From contig NZ_BCWP01000010.1 in NCBI RefSeq assembly GCF_001592265.1, forward strand, positions 1 to 64,000: a stretch of DNA of 64,000 nt. Reading direction: 5' to 3'. A model generated the notes under the pieces. The model saw nothing but the letters and a program-made list of their open reading frames with translations. It was not told the origin of the DNA and made no database searches. Positions 1 to 29,490 of the stretch are shown piece after piece. Made by a program: the position numbers and the translations under genes. Origin of the DNA: Curvibacter delicatus NBRC 14919. Lineage in GTDB: Bacteria > Pseudomonadota > Gammaproteobacteria > Burkholderiales > Burkholderiaceae_C. Every line of letters begins with the position of its first letter. The stretch's first letter is position 1.

Positions 1-250
1 TCAGCAAATCCTTAGCATTACCAGCGTCCAGGAGCTTGAACTGGCTCTCCGAGTTCATCTTCTCCGTGAACGGCCGAACGCCGGCAACGCTCTCCTCCTT
101 CAGCGTCCACAGTGCTCGTTCCAACGTGGTCTCGAACAGGCCGTATGCGACGACGAACGCACCGATCAGGCCAAGGTGCTGCGGCGAGAGGCCCAACGTC
201 TGAAGCCGGGTTTGGATGTCGAGCGATTTGGTCGGGTAGTCGTAGGGCAT
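1..250 (-). CDS. hypothetical protein, C-terminus beyond window
   Basis: A reading frame opens with ATG at 250 and stays open through base 1, giving the first 83 residues (MPYDYPTKSLDIQT...). It is predicted mostly helical, with a hydrophobic stretch followed by an acidic/aromatic helix (FETTLERALW). It begins 62 bp after the stop of the UvrD-like helicase and on the same strand, so it may be the third gene of that operon. I do not recognise the family. A HEPN-like or other helical effector is possible, but the residues that would decide this lie outside the window. Confidence 0.55.
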   Translation of the reverse strand, partial: MPYDYPTKSLDIQTRLQTLGLSPQHLGLIGAFVVAYGLFETTLERALWTLKEESVAGVRPFTEKMNSESQFKLLDAGNAKDLL

Positions 251-312: not shown

Positions 313-1392
313 CTACGGAGTGGGCGGAGTCCAGTAGGGCAGTGTTGAGGCGCCTGGGTCGCTCAAGACGATTGCGACACTTTGCTCGGCGCGCGTGACA
401 GCGACATAGAAGCTGGATGCGGCGAGCGGCTCCATGTAGGCTCCACAACGAATGAAGTCGGAAATGTTCGAAGTGGGTGCGATCAGCACACGTTGAAACG
501 TCGCCCCCTTGGCTATCCTGAAATTCATAAAATCCAGCTGCAGGTCCTTCGCCGATGAGACTGAGTGACGCAGGCTCTGCGGCTTGAATGTGGCCATGTA
601 GGCGTCAACGTGCTCTGGGCGAAGAAGGAACACGCCATCATGCCCGGTGCTCGTCTCGTTCTTCGATGTCGTGCTGGGGAAGCCCCATGAAGTATCGAAA
701 ATCAGGTCCGAAAAGGCGGCTATCAGCGGATGGCACCGCCAGGTTACCGAACTTTCGTCGATGGTAACCAGGCCGCACTTCTCGCGGCTACGAAACCAGT
801 TGATGGCGTCGGCATAGGCGTACTGCTTGTTCTTCGTGCTCCTGGCGTTGGTGGCGAGCACAGATTGACGAATGTCTCCGACCATCCAGATGTCGATCTT
901 GGACGCCAAGAGCGCATCGACAATGTCCCAGTCGTAGGCGCTCAGGTCTTGCACCTCGTCAATCAAGATCTCGTCGTAGATCCCTTCGAGCCTGCGCATG
1001 AGAGCGCCGCGGCTGTCGCCGACCAACTCGAATGCCAGGCGTCCGAGCTCGGACCGATAGACGGCTCCTCCCTTGTCGAGGAAGCGAGCCTTACCTTTGG
1101 CCATCTGGTAAGGCCGGCCATCGAAGTTGAAGCCGAGCACGCGCTCGCCACAGAACTTGAACGGAAGAAAAGGCTTAGCAAAATGCCTCAGCAGGAAGGT
1201 GAACCAACCCAGTACCTCGACGTTCATATGGTCGCCCGCGTAGCGAGCGAGGCGCGCCTCTAGCTCCTGCTGATTCTTCTGGGTGTAAGTCAATACGACG
1301 ACGCGTCGATCCGTCGGCAGCGTCCAACAATGCTCGACGATGCTCTGAGTCTTGCGCGACCCGGCTACCGCCAGAGTGACACGCTTAGCCAT
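313..1392 (-). CDS. compact UvrD/Rep-type superfamily 1 helicase, GajB-like
   Basis: This 359-residue protein carries superfamily 1 helicase signatures in order: a Walker A-like segment at about 8-15 (AVAGSRKT), motif II DEVQD at 145-149, motif III GDIRQS at 172-177, a motif IV-like TWRCHP near 218, motif V IAKGATFQRV near 293-302, and motif VI YVAVTRA at 329-335. It is much shorter than UvrD/PcrA (about 700 residues). Its size class and its gene partner match the GajB helicase of Gabija antiphage systems. The start overlaps the end of the upstream OLD nuclease gene by 8 bp, so the two are probably translationally coupled. The glycine before the Walker A lysine is an arginine here, which is unusual for an ATPase. 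Helicase family is confident; the Gabija assignment is inference. Confidence 0.8.
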   Translation of the reverse strand: MAKRVTLAVAGSRKTQSIVEHCWTLPTDRRVVVLTYTQKNQQELEARLARYAGDHMNVEVLGWFTFLLRHFAKPFLPFKFCGERVLGFNFDGRPYQMAKGKARFLDKGGAVYRSELGRLAFELVGDSRGALMRRLEGIYDEILIDEVQDLSAYDWDIVDALLASKIDIWMVGDIRQSVLATNARSTKNKQYAYADAINWFRSREKCGLVTIDESSVTWRCHPLIAAFSDLIFDTSWGFPSTTSKNETSTGHDGVFLLRPEHVDAYMATFKPQSLRHSVSSAKDLQLDFMNFRIAKGATFQRVLIAPTSNISDFIRCGAYMEPLAASSFYVAVTRAEQSVAIVLSDPGASTLPYWTPPTP

Positions 1393-2986
1393 TGATGAAT
1401 TTGGCCGCCTGAAGCATGTATGCCGGCGGCGTCAGCGCATGTACCGACGTGGCTATGCGCAGCGCAGCCTCAGTTTTCTCGCGCGTCATCCAGGTCGAGA
1501 CATCCGCATTGGGGGTGATGCCAAGCATGGTGCGCAGACGGGCCTCACCGCAGTGGTGGATCAACTGAGGCTCCAACGTTTTTCCATGCAGCACGTCGCC
1601 GATGAAGACCTCGCGCTGCCCTGCGGCTAGCCATTGAGCGAGTGGCCTTCGCAGCTCGGCTGGTTCAACGCCGTCGTTGTCGCGCATGGCCGCCACACGC
1701 TTACCCAGCCTGTGACACAGCTCAAGCCCGCGAGCCAGCGACAGTCCGCGCATGCTCACGACATCGATGCCGCATTCGATCGGGCGTTTGCCGTACAGAT
1801 CCTTGAATACCCGCTCGAAGATGATCTCGTCGGAGGGGCCCTCTACCAGGACGATCTTGTCGGCTAGGACAAGGCGTAAGGTGTCGAAACCAGGCAGCTT
1901 TTTGAAGTACTCCACGGTCTCAGGACTCAGCTCGTTGAGCTTGACGGGTGCGGCGGGACCGAGGAACTGAAGCGCCTCCACGCCCAGCCGATTCAGGACG
2001 CTTGAGCTGTGCGTGGTGATGAAGAGCTGTTGATCGGCGCTGGCCAGCGCCGACATTCGGTGTAGCAGCGTCGCCAGACTCGTATGGCTCAGATGGTTTT
2101 CCGGCTCTTCGATAGTGACGTACTTGGATCGGCCAGCGTGACGGTTCATGGCCAGCGCAATCTTGATGGCTGATTGTTGCCCCTGGCCGGCCATGGTGAA
2201 TGGGACGCCAGCGACGTGCGGTGACACAGACTCCTCCCAGGATGTCCTGGCTGTCTGATCCATCGCAAGCGCTATGGGCTGCGCGTGAAGTGACGCGTGG
2301 ATCTGGCTAATGCGGTCATTGACCGCCTTGAAGGCGGAATCTGAAAGGGCCGCCTTTGCTTCGCGGTATTGAAGGGAAATGCTGGCGCGTTCGTGAGGCT
2401 CTAGCTGGCTTCCCAGGATCTGGCGCAGGTGGAAGTCGATCCCGCCGGAGCTTCGAACCGTTCGTGCATCGATCACCGCGGTGGTCAACGCCCGTGGCCG
2501 CATGTTCAGTTTCTGGTCAGCGAACGATGTCCACTCAACGCAGTAGTACTCGACGGGCAGAAGGTGTGTCGGCTTTGCCGCCCAGGCCTGTAGCTCTAAC
2601 AAGTAGTCTTTGTTGGGGACGCAACGAAGCCGGACGCCCGGGGTGGCCTCGGTGGGAACGCTGGAGTTGTGAGCACCGCATAGCTCCTGAAGGTCGGGCA
2701 CATCAGCCAGGAAGACTTCGATGTCTATCTCAGGCAGCCGCGGCAGCTTGCCTTTCGCCTTCTCAGCGATGAAGTCCGCAACTACACCGGTATTGAACCA
2801 GTGGGGGTTCAACTCTTCAGCGGCACTGCGGCCATTGATTCGGCCGGTTAGCGCCAGCACGATGGCTTCAATGAGGGTGGACTTACCAGATTCGTTGGCG
2901 CCGACGATGATGTTGAGCTTGGTGTTAGGAACGATGGTCAGATCCCGATGAATCCGATAACCCCGAACGCGAATCTTCTTGATCAC
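1385..2986 (-). CDS. OLD-family ATPase/TOPRIM nuclease, GajA-like
   Basis: This is a 533-residue overcoming-lysogeny-defect (OLD) endonuclease. The N-terminal ABC-type ATPase has Walker A GANESGKST at 29-37, a degenerate signature AGQGQQSA near 266-273, Walker B YVTIEEPE at 289-296 and an H-loop TTHSS at 324-328. The C-terminal TOPRIM domain starts near 373 with LVEGPSDE (metal-binding E382) and has the DxD motif at D436/D438. I chose the GTG at 2986 because it follows a strong ribosome binding site (GGGAGG) at good spacing and the protein then starts with the usual IKKIRVRGYR strand. OLD proteins paired with a UvrD-like helicase are class 2 OLD; the best known are Gabija systems, where the TOPRIM nuclease cuts phage DNA. 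A divergent gene lies upstream. Confidence 0.85.
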   Translation of the reverse strand: MIKKIRVRGYRIHRDLTIVPNTKLNIIVGANESGKSTLIEAIVLALTGRINGRSAAEELNPHWFNTGVVADFIAEKAKGKLPRLPEIDIEVFLADVPDLQELCGAHNSSVPTEATPGVRLRCVPNKDYLLELQAWAAKPTHLLPVEYYCVEWTSFADQKLNMRPRALTTAVIDARTVRSSGGIDFHLRQILGSQLEPHERASISLQYREAKAALSDSAFKAVNDRISQIHASLHAQPIALAMDQTARTSWEESVSPHVAGVPFTMAGQGQQSAIKIALAMNRHAGRSKYVTIEEPENHLSHTSLATLLHRMSALASADQQLFITTHSSSVLNRLGVEALQFLGPAAPVKLNELSPETVEYFKKLPGFDTLRLVLADKIVLVEGPSDEIIFERVFKDLYGKRPIECGIDVVSMRGLSLARGLELCHRLGKRVAAMRDNDGVEPAELRRPLAQWLAAGQREVFIGDVLHGKTLEPQLIHHCGEARLRTMLGITPNADVSTWMTREKTEAALRIATSVHALTPPAYMLQAAKFING

Positions 2987-3095
2987 ATTTCCTCCCTTGC
3001 ACTCAACGTGGTGCGTCGAGCAATTTTGCAGCATGCAGCTGTGGAATTACCGGCACCAGAGAGATACTGTTGGATTCCCCACTCGCCATCTCAGC

Positions 3096-3845
3096 ATGAC
3101 CCGGAAAGCCAAGAAACACTTCGAACGCCAATACCTCGACGCGGTCCGTGATCTGCTTGCAGACTTTCCGCTAGGCGACGTCCGCGAGTACGAACAACCG
3201 GATTTCCTGGTCAGAACCTCCGACCGCGTCATCGGGATCGAGATCACCGAACTGCACCGTGCCAATGACGGCCAGCCCGTTCCCATGCAAGGCCGGGAGG
3301 CCATTCGCGACCAGATCGTCCAGCGCGCGAAGGCGCTGTATGACGGCGAAAGCTTACCGCTCATCGACTGCTGCGTCCACCTGAAGGACCTTTCCTATCG
3401 CCGCACGGAAATCGATCCTCTGGCTGCCAAGATCGCCGCATTGGCCAAGCGGAACATCCCGCCCGAAGGCACGCTCGCCAAACGCGAGCAGTACGACTGG
3501 GTTAACCGCGAGTACTTCCCCGAGGAGGTCGACTATATCCGGGTGGCGCGCTTCGACGGCCTGACGGCGAGCTTCTTCGGCACCGCAGGCTCGACTTGGG
3601 CGGAGCCGCTAACGCCGGACACCGTGCGCGCGGTCATCGACACCAAGGACGGCAAGATCGACGAGTACCTACGTCAGTGCGACGAGGCTTGGCTGGTGAT
3701 CGTCACCGACAGCCGGACCATGTCGACCTGGTTCAACAGCTCGGACCAAGTCAAGGCTGCGACCTTCATGACACGCTTTGCCCGGGTCATAATCCTGCGT
3801 ACTTTCGGCAGGGAGCTCATCGAGCTGCCTACGGCACGCCCATAG
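3096..3845 (+). CDS. hypothetical protein, possible PD-(D/E)XK nuclease-like fold
   Basis: A 249-residue protein from ATG 3096; the frame is open further upstream, but that part would cover the divergent promoter region. Near residues 35-52 it has PDFLV followed by VIGIEIT, which resembles the PD...ExK core of restriction-type nucleases except that threonine replaces the usual lysine. A helix rich in R, Q and E follows. The gene is divergent from the OLD/UvrD pair with about 110 bp between them, and sits in the same accessory block next to a tRNA. The position suggests a defence or mobile-element role, but no function can be assigned. The nuclease resemblance rests on one motif. Confidence 0.6.
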   Translation: MTRKAKKHFERQYLDAVRDLLADFPLGDVREYEQPDFLVRTSDRVIGIEITELHRANDGQPVPMQGREAIRDQIVQRAKALYDGESLPLIDCCVHLKDLSYRRTEIDPLAAKIAALAKRNIPPEGTLAKREQYDWVNREYFPEEVDYIRVARFDGLTASFFGTAGSTWAEPLTPDTVRAVIDTKDGKIDEYLRQCDEAWLVIVTDSRTMSTWFNSSDQVKAATFMTRFARVIILRTFGRELIELPTARP

Positions 3846-4106
3846 CGCTGGTAGCTCGGCCCAGGTCTACTTCCGGCCAGGAATTAGAAGCACCATTCCG
3901 CCCGTACGGCTTGAACGACTGCTTTGCCCCTTGACAGCGGTCAGCGCAGTTGACGTGGCGACGATGAGCGTATGGCCGCTTCGCGCAACTAACCGCGCAC
4001 TCCGCTTCTTGCCACGGGAGACAGGAATCGCTGCATTCGAGACAGCCAGTTCAGGTGTTCAGTTGGCAGAACGTGACCATAATGGGCATCGACCCAATGG
4101 TCCTGA
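3846..4106. other. intergenic stretch without a recognisable gene
   Basis: About 260 bases between the nuclease-like gene and the repeats beside tRNA-fMet. Short open frames exist on both strands, but none has a credible start, ribosome binding site or protein signature. I looked for an integrase C-terminus reading away from the tRNA and did not find one. Confidence 0.5.
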
Positions 4107-4110
4107 AAAT

Positions 4111-4158
4111 TTTGGCCCAATTTCGATGGGCTAAAAGTGGGCCAAATTTGGGCCAAAA
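4111..4158. repeat. 11-bp phased direct repeats (TGGGCCAAA) with one inverted copy
   Basis: Three direct copies start at 4127 (TGGGCTAAA), 4138 (TGGGCCAAA) and 4149 (TGGGCCAAA), exactly 11 bp apart, so all lie on one face of the helix. A fourth copy in opposite orientation (TTTGGCCCA) lies at 4111-4119. The array abuts the terminator behind tRNA-fMet on the accessory side. Phased repeats like this are typical of integrase arm sites or excisionase sites at the end of an integrated element; replication iterons would be another reading. Confidence 0.55.
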
Positions 4159-4160
4159 AC

Positions 4161-4189
4161 AAAAACGCCCACCAGAGGTGGGCGTTTAC
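4161..4189 (-). terminator. rho-independent terminator of the rplQ/tRNA-fMet transcript
   Basis: On the minus strand a 9-bp stem (ACGCCCACC / GGTGGGCGT, loop of three) at about 4165-4185 is followed by a T-rich tract (TTTTGTTTTT). It lies about 30 bp beyond the tRNA 3' end and would close the whole ribosomal protein/tRNA transcription unit. The other strand also has a short T run after the stem, so weak bidirectional action is possible. Confidence 0.8.
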
Positions 4190-4213
4190 TGCAGCGGGAT
4201 ACCGCTAATTTGT

Positions 4214-4290
<77 letters not shown>

Positions 4291-4308
4291 GTAAAAAATT
4301 ATTATACC

Positions 4309-4707
4309 TTATTCTGCCTTGGCAGTCTCGGCAGATGCCTCAACTACTTCAGAACGCTCCACCAGTTCGACCAGCGCCATCGGTGCATTGTCGCCAACGC
4401 GGAAGCCCATTTTCAGAATACGGGTGTAACCGCCCGGACGAGCCTTGAAGCGCGGGCCCAGGACATCAAACAGCTTGGTGACGCTGTCGCGGTCACGCAG
4501 GCGGTCGAACGCGAGACGGCGATTGGCAAGCGTCGGCTCTTTGGCGAGCGTGATCATCGGCTCGACAACGCGGCGCAGTTCCTTAGCCTTCGGGACGGTG
4601 GTCTTGATGACTTCATGCTCGATGAGCGAATTCATCATGTTACGCAGCATCGCAAGACGGTGCGAGCTGGTTCGGTTGAGTTTACGGAGTCCGTGTCCGT
4701 GACGCAT
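4309..4707 (-). CDS. rplQ: 50S ribosomal protein L17
   Basis: A 132-residue protein with the L17 start ([17 protein letters not shown]) and the conserved helix with [17 protein letters not shown]17 lies near the polypeptide exit region of the large subunit. It is the last protein gene of the alpha operon, 82 bp downstream of rpoA, as in most proteobacteria. The C-terminus is a short, variable acidic/Ala tail. Confidence 0.98.
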
Positions 4708-4789
4708 GGTGCTTTCCTTTCTTTATAAAACAGGCAGCCGTATCAGGTACTGCCCGCAGCACTGAGCCGCTATTTCAGGCTCGTGAAAA

Positions 4790-5779
4790 TCAACGCTTTT
4801 CGAGCGCAGCCGGCGGCCAGCTCTCAAGCTTCATGCCGAGAGTCAGACCACGCGAAGCCAAGACTTCCTTGATTTCGTTGAGCGACTTGCGACCCAGATT
4901 CGGGGTCTTGAGCAACTCATTCTCGGTGCGCTGGATCAGGTCACCGATGTAGTAGATGTTCTCGGCCTTCAGGCAGTTGGCCGAACGGACCGTGAGTTCC
5001 AGCTCGTCCACAGGACGCAGCAGGATCGGATCGAACTGGGTGCCGCCCCGCGTTGCAGGTGCTTCGAAAGCGGCGAGTTCGCTGCCTTCAAGCTGGGCAA
5101 ACACGGCCAGCTGCTCGACCAGGATTTTAGCCGAAGCACGCACGGCATCTTCGGCCGTGATGGCGCCGTTGGTTTCGATTTCAACAACCAACTTGTCCAG
5201 ATCGGTACGCTGCTCAACGCGGGCGCTTTCAACCGTGTAGCTGACGCGCTTGACCGGAGAGAACGACGCGTCGAGGACGATACGGCCAATTGACTTGGTC
5301 GCCTCGTCGCCCAGACGACGCATCGTACCCGGCACATAACCGCGGCCTTTTTCGACCTTGATCTGCATGTCGAGCTTGCCACCCGCCGACAGCGTGGCGA
5401 TCACGTGGTCGGGGTTGATGATTTCGACATCATGCGGGGTCTGGATGTCGCCTGCCGTGACCAAGCCTTCGCCATCCTTGCGCAGGCTCAGTGTCACCTC
5501 ATCGCGGTTGTGCAGTTTGAACACAACACCTTTGAGGTTGAGGAGAATGTTGACCACGTCTTCTTGCACGCCGTCAATCGACGAGTACTCGTGCAAGACA
5601 CCTGCGATCGTCACTTCCGTTGCAGCATAACCCGGCATCGACGACAACAGGACACGGCGCAGCGCATTGCCCAGCGTATGGCCGTAGCCACGCTCAAACG
5701 GCTCAAGCACCACTTTGGCGCGGTTATGGCCGAGTTGTTCGACGTTGATTGCTTTGGGTTTAAGCAGACTGGTTTGCAT
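4790..5779 (-). CDS. rpoA: DNA-directed RNA polymerase subunit alpha
   Basis: A 329-residue alpha subunit, the same length as E. coli RpoA. The N-terminal dimerisation/assembly domain contains the [18 protein letters not shown] motif near 33-50. The C-terminal domain (from about 250) has the helix-hairpin-helix surface ([16 protein letters not shown] near 293-308) that contacts UP elements and activators such as FNR and OxyR. It lies between rpsD and rplQ in the standard alpha operon order. The 103-bp gap to rpsD includes a 16-bp perfect palindrome (AGCGCGGGCCCGCGCT) near 5847-5862 that may form an mRNA hairpin. Confidence 0.98.
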
Positions 5780-5882
5780 GCAGACTTCCTGTCAATACCC
5801 CCGGCTCGTTACACCGGTAAGGCTGGTGAAGCACCCGGCAGCGCGGGCCCGCGCTCCGGGAACGGATTCGAAATATGCCTGA

Positions 5883-6506
5883 TTAGCGAGAGTACAACTC
5901 GACGATCAGCGATTCGTTGATGTCAGAGCCAAATTCGTCGCGATCCGGCACTTTCTTGAAAGTACCTTCAGCCTTGTCGAGGTTCACCTCGACCCAGGCC
6001 GGCATACCCACTTGCTGGGCCAGCTGCAAAGCTTCTACCACACGGTTCTGCTTCTTGGACTTTTCGCGCACAGCCACCACATCACCAGCCTTCACCATGT
6101 AAGACGGGATATTGACAGCGTTGCCGTTCACCGTGATCGCCTTGTGCGACACCAATTGGCGTGCTTCGGCGCGGGTCGAACCAAAACCCATGCGGTAGAC
6201 CACATTGTCCAGACGGGACTCGAGCAGGAACAACAGGTTGGCGCCGGTGTTGCCTTTGCGGCTATCGGCTTGCTCGAAGTAGCGGCGGAACTGGCGCTCG
6301 AGCACGCCGTACATGCGCTTGACTTTCTGCTTTTCACGCAGTTGCAGACCGAAATCAGAAGTGCGGGCACCCGAGGTGCGGCCGTGCTGACCGGGTTTGG
6401 AATCGAATTTGGCCTTGTCGCCGATCGAGCGACGAGCGCTCTTGAGGAACAGGTCCGTGCCTTCGCGGCGGGAGAGTTTGGCCTTGGGGCCGAGGTAACG
6501 TGCCAC
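5883..6506 (-). CDS. rpsD: 30S ribosomal protein S4
   Basis: A 207-residue S4, a primary 16S rRNA binding protein. It opens with [16 protein letters not shown] and has the S4 RNA-binding domain ([20 protein letters not shown] at about 97-116). The N-terminus has no zinc-binding cysteines, so it is the Zn-independent form. It lies between rpsK and rpoA. In E. coli S4 represses the alpha operon through an mRNA pseudoknot; no such structure is obvious here. The 109-bp gap after rpsK contains two short GC-rich hairpins (around 6530-6570). Confidence 0.98.
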
Positions 6507-28368: not shown

Positions 28369-29490
28369 GTGAGTCTGCTGTTCTCCCCCTACACCCTGCC
28401 CTCGCCGCGCGGCGGGCTGCCGCTTGCCAACCGCATCGTCATCGCCCCCATGTGCCAGTACTCTGCCGTCAACGGCGAAGCCGGTGACTGGCACCTGGCG
28501 CACTGGACCAGCCTGCTCAACAGCGGCGCCGGGCTGCTGACGCTGGAAGCCACGGCGGTCACACCCGAGGGCCGCATCACCCCCGACTGTCTGGGCCTGT
28601 GGGACGAACGCACCGAACACACCTTGGGCAACACGCTGCAGCGCGCCCGCCAGCTGGCGCCGCCCATGCCGGTGTGCATCCAGCTGTCGCATGCCGGGCG
28701 CAAGGCCTCCAGCGCAGCGCCCTGGCAAGGCGGGCAGCTGTTGACGCCCGCACAGGGCGGCTGGCAACCCGTCGGCCCTTCGGCCCTGCCGCAACTGCCC
28801 GCCGAGGCGCCGCCCACGGCGCTGACGCAGACCGAGATGGCGGAGATCCGCGACGCCTTTGTCGCCGCCGCCCAGCGCGCGCAACGCATCGGCATCGACG
28901 CCATCGAGCTGCATGCGGCGCACGGTTACCTGCTGCACCAGTTCCTCTCGCCGCTCGCCAACCAGCGCGATGACGCCTACGGCGGCAGCCTGGCCAATCG
29001 CATGCGCTTCCCACTCGAAGTGTTTGCCGCTGTTCGCCAGGTGTTCGACGGCCCGGTCGGGGTGCGCCTCTCGGCCATCGACTGGGTGGAGGGTGGGCTG
29101 GACGTGGCGCAGACGGCAGAGTTCTCGCGCCAGCTCAAAGCCCTGGGCTGCGACTTCATCCACGTCTCCACTGCCGGCGTGTCACCGCTGCAGAAGATCA
29201 CCCTGGGCCCGGGTTACCAGGTGCCGTTTGCGCGCGAAATCCGCCAGGCCTGCGGCCTGCCCACCACGGCCGTCGGCCTGATCACGCAGGCGAATCAGGC
29301 GGAAGACATTCTGCAAGCCGGTGATGCCGACCTGATCGCCATCGCCCGCGTCCTGCTCTACAAGCCACGCTGGCCCTGGGAAGCGGCCGCCGAACTGGGC
29401 GGCCAGGTGCAGGCCAGCGCCCAATATTGGCGCTGCCTGCCGCGCGAGGCGCAGAGCATTTTCGGCAACGTGAAAATCGGTCAGCGCTAA
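28369..29490 (+). CDS. NADH:flavin oxidoreductase, Old Yellow Enzyme (YqjM/XenA type)
   Basis: A 373-residue FMN-dependent ene-reductase with a TIM-barrel fold. It starts at GTG 28369, preceded by GTGAGGA. Motifs of the thermophilic-like/YqjM class are visible: APMCQYSA with C29 and Y31, the substrate-binding HAAHGYLLHQF near 184-194, and the FMN-phosphate region near the C-terminus (DLIAIARVLLYKP). It probably reduces activated C=C bonds of enones or nitro compounds. The physiological substrate cannot be read from the sequence. Confidence 0.92.
   Translation: MSLLFSPYTLPSPRGGLPLANRIVIAPMCQYSAVNGEAGDWHLAHWTSLLNSGAGLLTLEATAVTPEGRITPDCLGLWDERTEHTLGNTLQRARQLAPPMPVCIQLSHAGRKASSAAPWQGGQLLTPAQGGWQPVGPSALPQLPAEAPPTALTQTEMAEIRDAFVAAAQRAQRIGIDAIELHAAHGYLLHQFLSPLANQRDDAYGGSLANRMRFPLEVFAAVRQVFDGPVGVRLSAIDWVEGGLDVAQTAEFSRQLKALGCDFIHVSTAGVSPLQKITLGPGYQVPFAREIRQACGLPTTAVGLITQANQAEDILQAGDADLIAIARVLLYKPRWPWEAAAELGGQVQASAQYWRCLPREAQSIFGNVKIGQR

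Follow-up and report, generated by a model that had tools for sequence, protein, structure and literature searches.

A probable compact Gabija phage-defence system on foreign DNA at a tRNA-Met gene of Curvibacter delicatus

Introduction

At the start of contig NZ_BCWP01000010.1 of Curvibacter delicatus NBRC 14919, a gene for an OLD-family nuclease overlaps a gene for a small UvrD-like helicase. Do these two genes form a Gabija system, and if so, what does a GajB of only 359 residues retain? We analyzed positions 1 to 64,000 of the contig (64,000 nucleotides, hereafter the window) and consider it very probable that the pair is a compact Gabija antiphage system carried by foreign DNA that integrated at a tRNA-Met gene, the protective function being predicted by analogy with characterized members.

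The gene pair and its assignment

Both genes lie on the minus strand and have intact reading frames. gajA (1385 to 2986) encodes a 533-residue OLD-family ABC ATPase/TOPRIM nuclease; its GTG start is preceded on the coding strand by GGGAGGAAAT, and a ribosome-binding site, GGGAGG, can be read from the sequence just upstream (2987 to 3000, minus strand). Translation from an alternative ATG at 3034 would lengthen GajA by 16 residues, but it is at the GTG that relatives and models start. gajB (313 to 1392) begins with ATG and encodes a 359-residue SF1A helicase-like ATPase with the P-loop GSRKT and, as judged below, without a 2B subdomain. The gajB start and the gajA stop overlap by 8 bp (1385 to 1392, minus strand; ATGGCTAA), through which translation of the two genes is likely coupled. 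Re-reading the sequence bore out the coordinates, the overlap and the helicase length given in the initial annotation, and the GajA residues that it quoted are present (Walker A G29-ANESGKS-T37, TOPRIM E382 and D436-N-D438).

The pair had been interpreted as a Gabija-type combination of an OLD nuclease and a UvrD-like partner, and the PADLOC search that had been suggested as a check supports this interpretation, as the best matches of both proteins are Gabija models. GajA best matches the GajA model PDLC00098 (E = 1.1e-196, residues 1-531, 534-position model) and GajB the GajB model PDLC00140 (E = 2.4e-137, residues 1-355, 365-position model), followed by PDLC00102 (GajA, 532) and PDLC00148 (GajB, 369); non-defence OLD ATPases were not the sole matches. 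Pfam assigns AAA_15 and OLD-like_TOPRIM to GajA and UvrD-helicase to GajB, and in the NCBIfam search of both proteins no model scored above its cut-off. Because the matches to curated profiles are full length with E<1e-130, and because the pair is intact in dozens of other genomes, the match to GajA-GajB is not due to chance.

The further proposal of a small-helicase subtype holds with respect to size, GajB having 359 residues compared with 494 in Bacillus cereus GajB (BcGajB), but the subtype is already represented in PADLOC. With GajB models of 365 and 369 residues and GajA models of 532 and 534, this size was already known, and the small-helicase type, having its own models in the 2023 library, is not new. 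The other PADLOC models among the matches listed are mostly longer for GajA (536-709 positions) and span 458-625 positions for GajB. All 44 GajB and 38 GajA sequences that we scanned match the same PADLOC models as the window pair. As a member of Gabija the window pair is ordinary; the conserved loss of 2B and an arginine in the P-loop are the only points that may surprise a specialist.

Distribution of related loci

Relatives come from a scan of species genomes, run with an alignment of three GajB sequences and yielding 42 loci, and from a scan of viral contigs, which yielded two. Co-occurrence is strict: whenever a related locus includes upstream DNA, gajA immediately precedes the small gajB in the same orientation, mostly with an overlap of 8 bp. 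A chance pairing of an OLD nuclease and a helicase was considered and is ruled out by this conserved gene order. Some copies, those of Cupriavidus plasmids (L012/L013) among them, are frame-broken. The hosts belong to the Betaproteobacteria, Gammaproteobacteria, Rhizobiales, Actinomycetota and Nitrospirota and are intermixed in the tree; this scatter across phyla, together with the presence of the pair on plasmids, suggests horizontal spread. Within the window's own family, 10 of 300 genomes match and a single other relative is close (G105, 68% identity), so the pair is sporadic there.

Noviherbaspirillum denitrificans carries two copies with identical GajB (L027, L028), one of them on a 4.8-kb contig, suggesting recent duplication or mobility of the pair in this species. 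Two IMG/VR viral contigs (L065, L066) also carry the pair, with GajB 38-40% and 64% identical; the Gabija pair may therefore travel on phage-like elements as well.

Small pairs are likewise found on plasmids. The window GajB matches 1,768 plasmid records at E<1e-5. A search with a Bradyrhizobium GajB matched 1,744 records, of which 1,660 were covered over at least 80%; the matches to this query are mostly from Klebsiella and Escherichia, and 1,122 are predicted to be conjugative. In the three plasmids that we looked at (L101-L103, about 3450-6023), all of IncF type, a 520/521-residue AAA ATPase (OLD) gene overlaps that of a 340-residue helicase without 2B, adjoining vapBC and ccdAB. Two of these three pairs were run against PADLOC, and the small GajA and GajB models were their best matches.

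Genomic setting

The initial annotation placed the pair in accessory DNA, and rightly so: most same-genus genomes lack everything left of about 4213, their match starting only at the tRNA-Met gene (4214-4290, called by ARAGORN). The 3' part of this gene (4213 to 4258, minus strand) forms an attL-like island boundary. Parts of the tRNA-Met 3' end, TTGGTTGCGCGAGGAG and CTTTGGGTTATGAG, are repeated on contig G000:C13 at about 28927-28956 (L098 13927-13956); this copy lacks 16 bp inside and makes an attL/attR-like pair with the window. The attR-like repeat adjoins a gene for a 1381-residue protein (L098 9284-13429, minus strand) that weakly matches an integrase (phrog_216, E = 1.2e-4); next come two ORFs of unknown family. 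Just past the repeat sits an M20 peptidase gene that in a same-genus genome follows the tRNA. A repeated tRNA 3' end with a host M20 peptidase gene beyond the repeat is the pattern typical of an element that integrated at a tRNA. C13 and the window contig are not joinable, and the stretch from the C13 start to the repeat also holds metabolic genes. The window itself starts at the contig end, and the downstream side of the pair is truncated.

Two ORFs flank the pair. The one downstream of gajB (1-250, minus strand), which starts MPYDYPTKSLDIQ, is cut by the contig end; its relatives, 68-71% identical over most of the sequence, are on plasmids of Polaromonas, Shewanella and Pseudomonas, and no Gabija pair lies beside them in the two plasmid regions checked. 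On the other side, a divergent 249-residue ORF (3096-3845, plus strand) contains a stretch, PDFLV...GIEITE, that recalls PD-(D/E)XK nucleases and has only a weak match to a phage family (phrog_35865, E = 3e-7), with no match in plasmids or in 150 genomes of the family. Both were considered as a third gene of the system and rejected; having no counterpart in related GajAB loci, they are island cargo.

Among the immediate and near neighbors of the relatives are type I and III restriction-modification systems, Shedu, Drt4, Drt6 and a Pycsar-type TIR effector, as well as resolvases, integrases and transposases, although the surveyed set was partly size-chosen and lacked a matched control, so that the survey is supportive only.

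Such a setting could also be read to mean that the Gabija-like pair mainly serves the mobile element, in conflict with other plasmids or islands or in DNA-end processing, with phage protection secondary or absent. The location of the pair on mobile DNA would fit, as would the roughly 1,700 plasmid records that bear similar small helicases, many of them (1,122) predicted conjugative, and the ccdAB and vapBC maintenance modules that adjoin the plasmid cases looked at. We nevertheless consider this role improbable, as other defence systems adjoin the relatives, and plasmids and islands often carry defence genes in any case. Moreover, known Gabija pairs confer protection from phage (PMC10781630, PMC12407980).

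The GajA nuclease

As expected of an antiphage Gabija nuclease, GajA has a two-metal TOPRIM site, formed by E382, D386, D436, D438, T470, E472 and K504. All of these residues are invariant in 44 of 44 GajA sequences except K504, which is present in 43, and the Walker A motif (G29-T37) is conserved among the same 44. These residues match the metal-A, metal-B and lysine positions of class 2 OLD nucleases, which in the enzyme of Burkholderia pseudomallei (Bp OLD) are E400, E404, D455, D457, T506, E508 and K562 (PMC6755086); the one departure is D386, an Asp for Glu.

The length of GajA, about that of class 1 enzymes, raises the alternative that it is a stand-alone class 1 OLD nuclease beside an unrelated UvrD-type repair helicase. 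Two further observations point the same way: the profile score is slightly higher for the class 1 OLD of Thermus (65.7 bits) than for BcGajA (57 bits), and D386 is an aspartate at the metal-B position, where class 2 OLD has glutamate and Thermus OLD carries D381 (PMC7049728). However, T470 and K504 align with T506 and K562 of Bp OLD and are class 2-like, Thermus OLD having serine and arginine there (PMC6755086, PMC7049728). The strict pairing and the overlap conserved across phyla likewise speak against a stand-alone enzyme, and we regard this alternative as highly unlikely.

The GajA model (pLDDT 80.6) aligns over 1-533 both with Thermus OLD (Z 19.9, 439 residues aligned, rmsd 10.6) and with BcGajA (Z 18.2, 457 aligned, rmsd 6.8), and among the solved chains listed only class 1 OLD and GajA cover the whole of it. 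In class 2 OLD the C-terminal helical domain exceeds that of class 1 by about 50 residues. GajA ends only 95 residues after D438, which by the profile alignment leaves it about 49 residues shorter there than BcGajA, so that a helical domain of the class 2 kind would be present in reduced form at most; K504, however, sits in a predicted C-terminal helix of the model, like K562 of class 2.

A GajB without the 2B subdomain

The AlphaFold model of GajB (pLDDT 92.2) contains two RecA cores. The best solved-structure match of GajB profile A3 is BcGajB (8sm3_B, E = 1.3e-16), in a collinear alignment of GajB residues 3-233 with residues 11-239 of the chain, which correspond to 1A, 1B and the start of 2A when the subdomain borders are taken from PMC10681800. 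In BcGajB the 2B (Cacc) subdomain occupies residues 314-416, 103 residues in all (PMC10681800); in the model of the window GajB, a strand at 272-275 leads through a 12-residue loop directly to the motif V strand at 288-290. Sequence and model together indicate that GajB keeps 1A, 1B and 2A, with the approximately 103-residue 2B replaced by a loop of about 12 residues. The four-subdomain build of BcGajB, with 2B present, is thus absent from window GajB, which the 365- and 369-residue PADLOC models match end to end. In the Bacillus complex, it is 1B that bears the contacts of GajB with GajA (PMC10781630); because 1B is aligned and a 12-residue loop stands at the 2B site, the GajA-contacting subdomain appears to be kept while 2B is absent.

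Foldseek placed a chain of the Gabija AB complex first for the GajB model (8tk1_F, E = 3.6e-14). In VIA-align, UvrD, PcrA and Rep reached higher Z scores (25-26) than GajB (19.7), which is expected from the shared core, and with profile A5, from which the distant plasmid rows were left out, Rep (E = 5.7e-14) and UvrD scored slightly above GajB (1.6e-12). These two rankings, like the missing 2B, weigh against the Gabija reading. A literature search found no description of a GajB lacking 2B, an absence that is not proof.

The SF1A motifs I-VI are conserved (K14-T15, D145-E-V-Q-D149, GDxRQ, R219, KG295-296 and YVAVTRA), and K14, T15, D145, E146, Q148, D149, Q176, K295 and R334 are invariant in the 44 GajB sequences. 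The P-loop, AVAG[SG]RKTQ, departs from the canonical GSGKT: Arg13 (window about 1354-1356) replaces a Walker A glycine, and does so in 43 of 44 close GajB proteins across phyla. The peptide patterns used in the search for relatives lay outside the P-loop and so did not select for Arg13. In more distant small GajBs (from Xanthomonas, Bradyrhizobium, a Listeria-associated locus and E. coli plasmids) the motif reads GSGKT or GSGKS, and on the tree the Arg/Gly label requires two to three changes, compared with 7.6 in shuffles.

Arginine in place of the P-loop glycine before Lys14, together with the missing 2B and a location at a contig edge within an island, might be taken to mark a decayed and inactive locus. 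We give this very little credence: conserved Arg13 itself argues against decay, and its combination with invariant motif residues, R334 and Q176 among them, implies that this form of GajB is maintained by selection. A pseudogene is likewise rejected, given the intact frames and the conserved GajB motif residues.

Proposed mechanism and significance

By analogy with characterized Gabija systems (PMC10781630, PMC10822852, PMC12407980), we infer that the two proteins form a complex that cleaves DNA and protects against phage in response to a trigger. GajA would dimerize or oligomerize via its ABC ATPase part and cut or degrade DNA with its two-metal TOPRIM site, in which K504 would be the catalytic lysine. 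GajB would be a minimal SF1A motor that keeps the GajA-contacting 1B and has lost a regulatory 2B, most likely serving the GajA-GajB complex as an ATPase subunit that responds to DNA or nucleotide, and not working on its own as a processive helicase. With 2B missing, a free helicase becomes less likely and a regulatory ATPase more likely, which fits the absence of helicase activity and unwinding in Bacillus GajB (PMC10681800). When triggered, the complex would attack invading phage or plasmid DNA; for the Gabija of Pseudomonas aeruginosa PA14, DNA ends unprotected by RecBCD have been proposed as the trigger.

Beyond this locus, we tentatively suggest, while thinking it rather doubtful, that there is a broad, naturally 2B-less Gabija branch in which GajB is a non-helicase, minimal regulated ATPase, and that the P-loop arginine (GxRKT) alters nucleotide handling in one large clade. 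If GajB is indeed such a non-helicase ATPase, both the 2B subdomain and unwinding would be dispensable for Gabija defence. The widespread pairs with 2B-less GajB amount to a natural deletion experiment on whether GajB unwinds DNA, and the small pairs on common plasmids of E. coli and Klebsiella are a Gabija variant easily tested in laboratory strains.

Comparison with known systems

The Gabija of Bacillus cereus VD045 (GajA 578 residues, GajB 494; PDB 8SM3, 8JQB, 8IUD) has the same combination of an OLD nuclease and an SF1A helicase-like partner, and shares with the window pair the ABC and TOPRIM catalytic residues and the 1A-1B-2A cores of GajB. It differs in that window GajB appears to lack the 2B (Cacc) subdomain and has the P-loop GSRKT, and in that window GajA is about 45 residues shorter, mostly past the DxD motif. 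The class 2 OLD systems of Burkholderia pseudomallei and Xanthomonas campestris (PMC6755086) have the same tandem UvrD-like helicase, two-metal TOPRIM site and catalytic lysine, but the C-terminal region of window GajA is shorter and D386 is an aspartate, not a glutamate. In P. aeruginosa PA14, a gajA-gajB operon is likewise found on a genomic island, defence requires both genes, and the GajB motif II is DESQ (PMC12407980). The IncF-type plasmid pairs of E. coli and Klebsiella have the same build and match the same two PADLOC model pairs, whereas their GajB has a canonical P-loop, GSGKT, and is only about 30% identical. From the small-helicase models of PADLOC (PDLC00098/PDLC00102 and PDLC00140/PDLC00148), which have the same lengths and match both proteins over their full length, nothing essential differs, and the window pair is one more member of this type.
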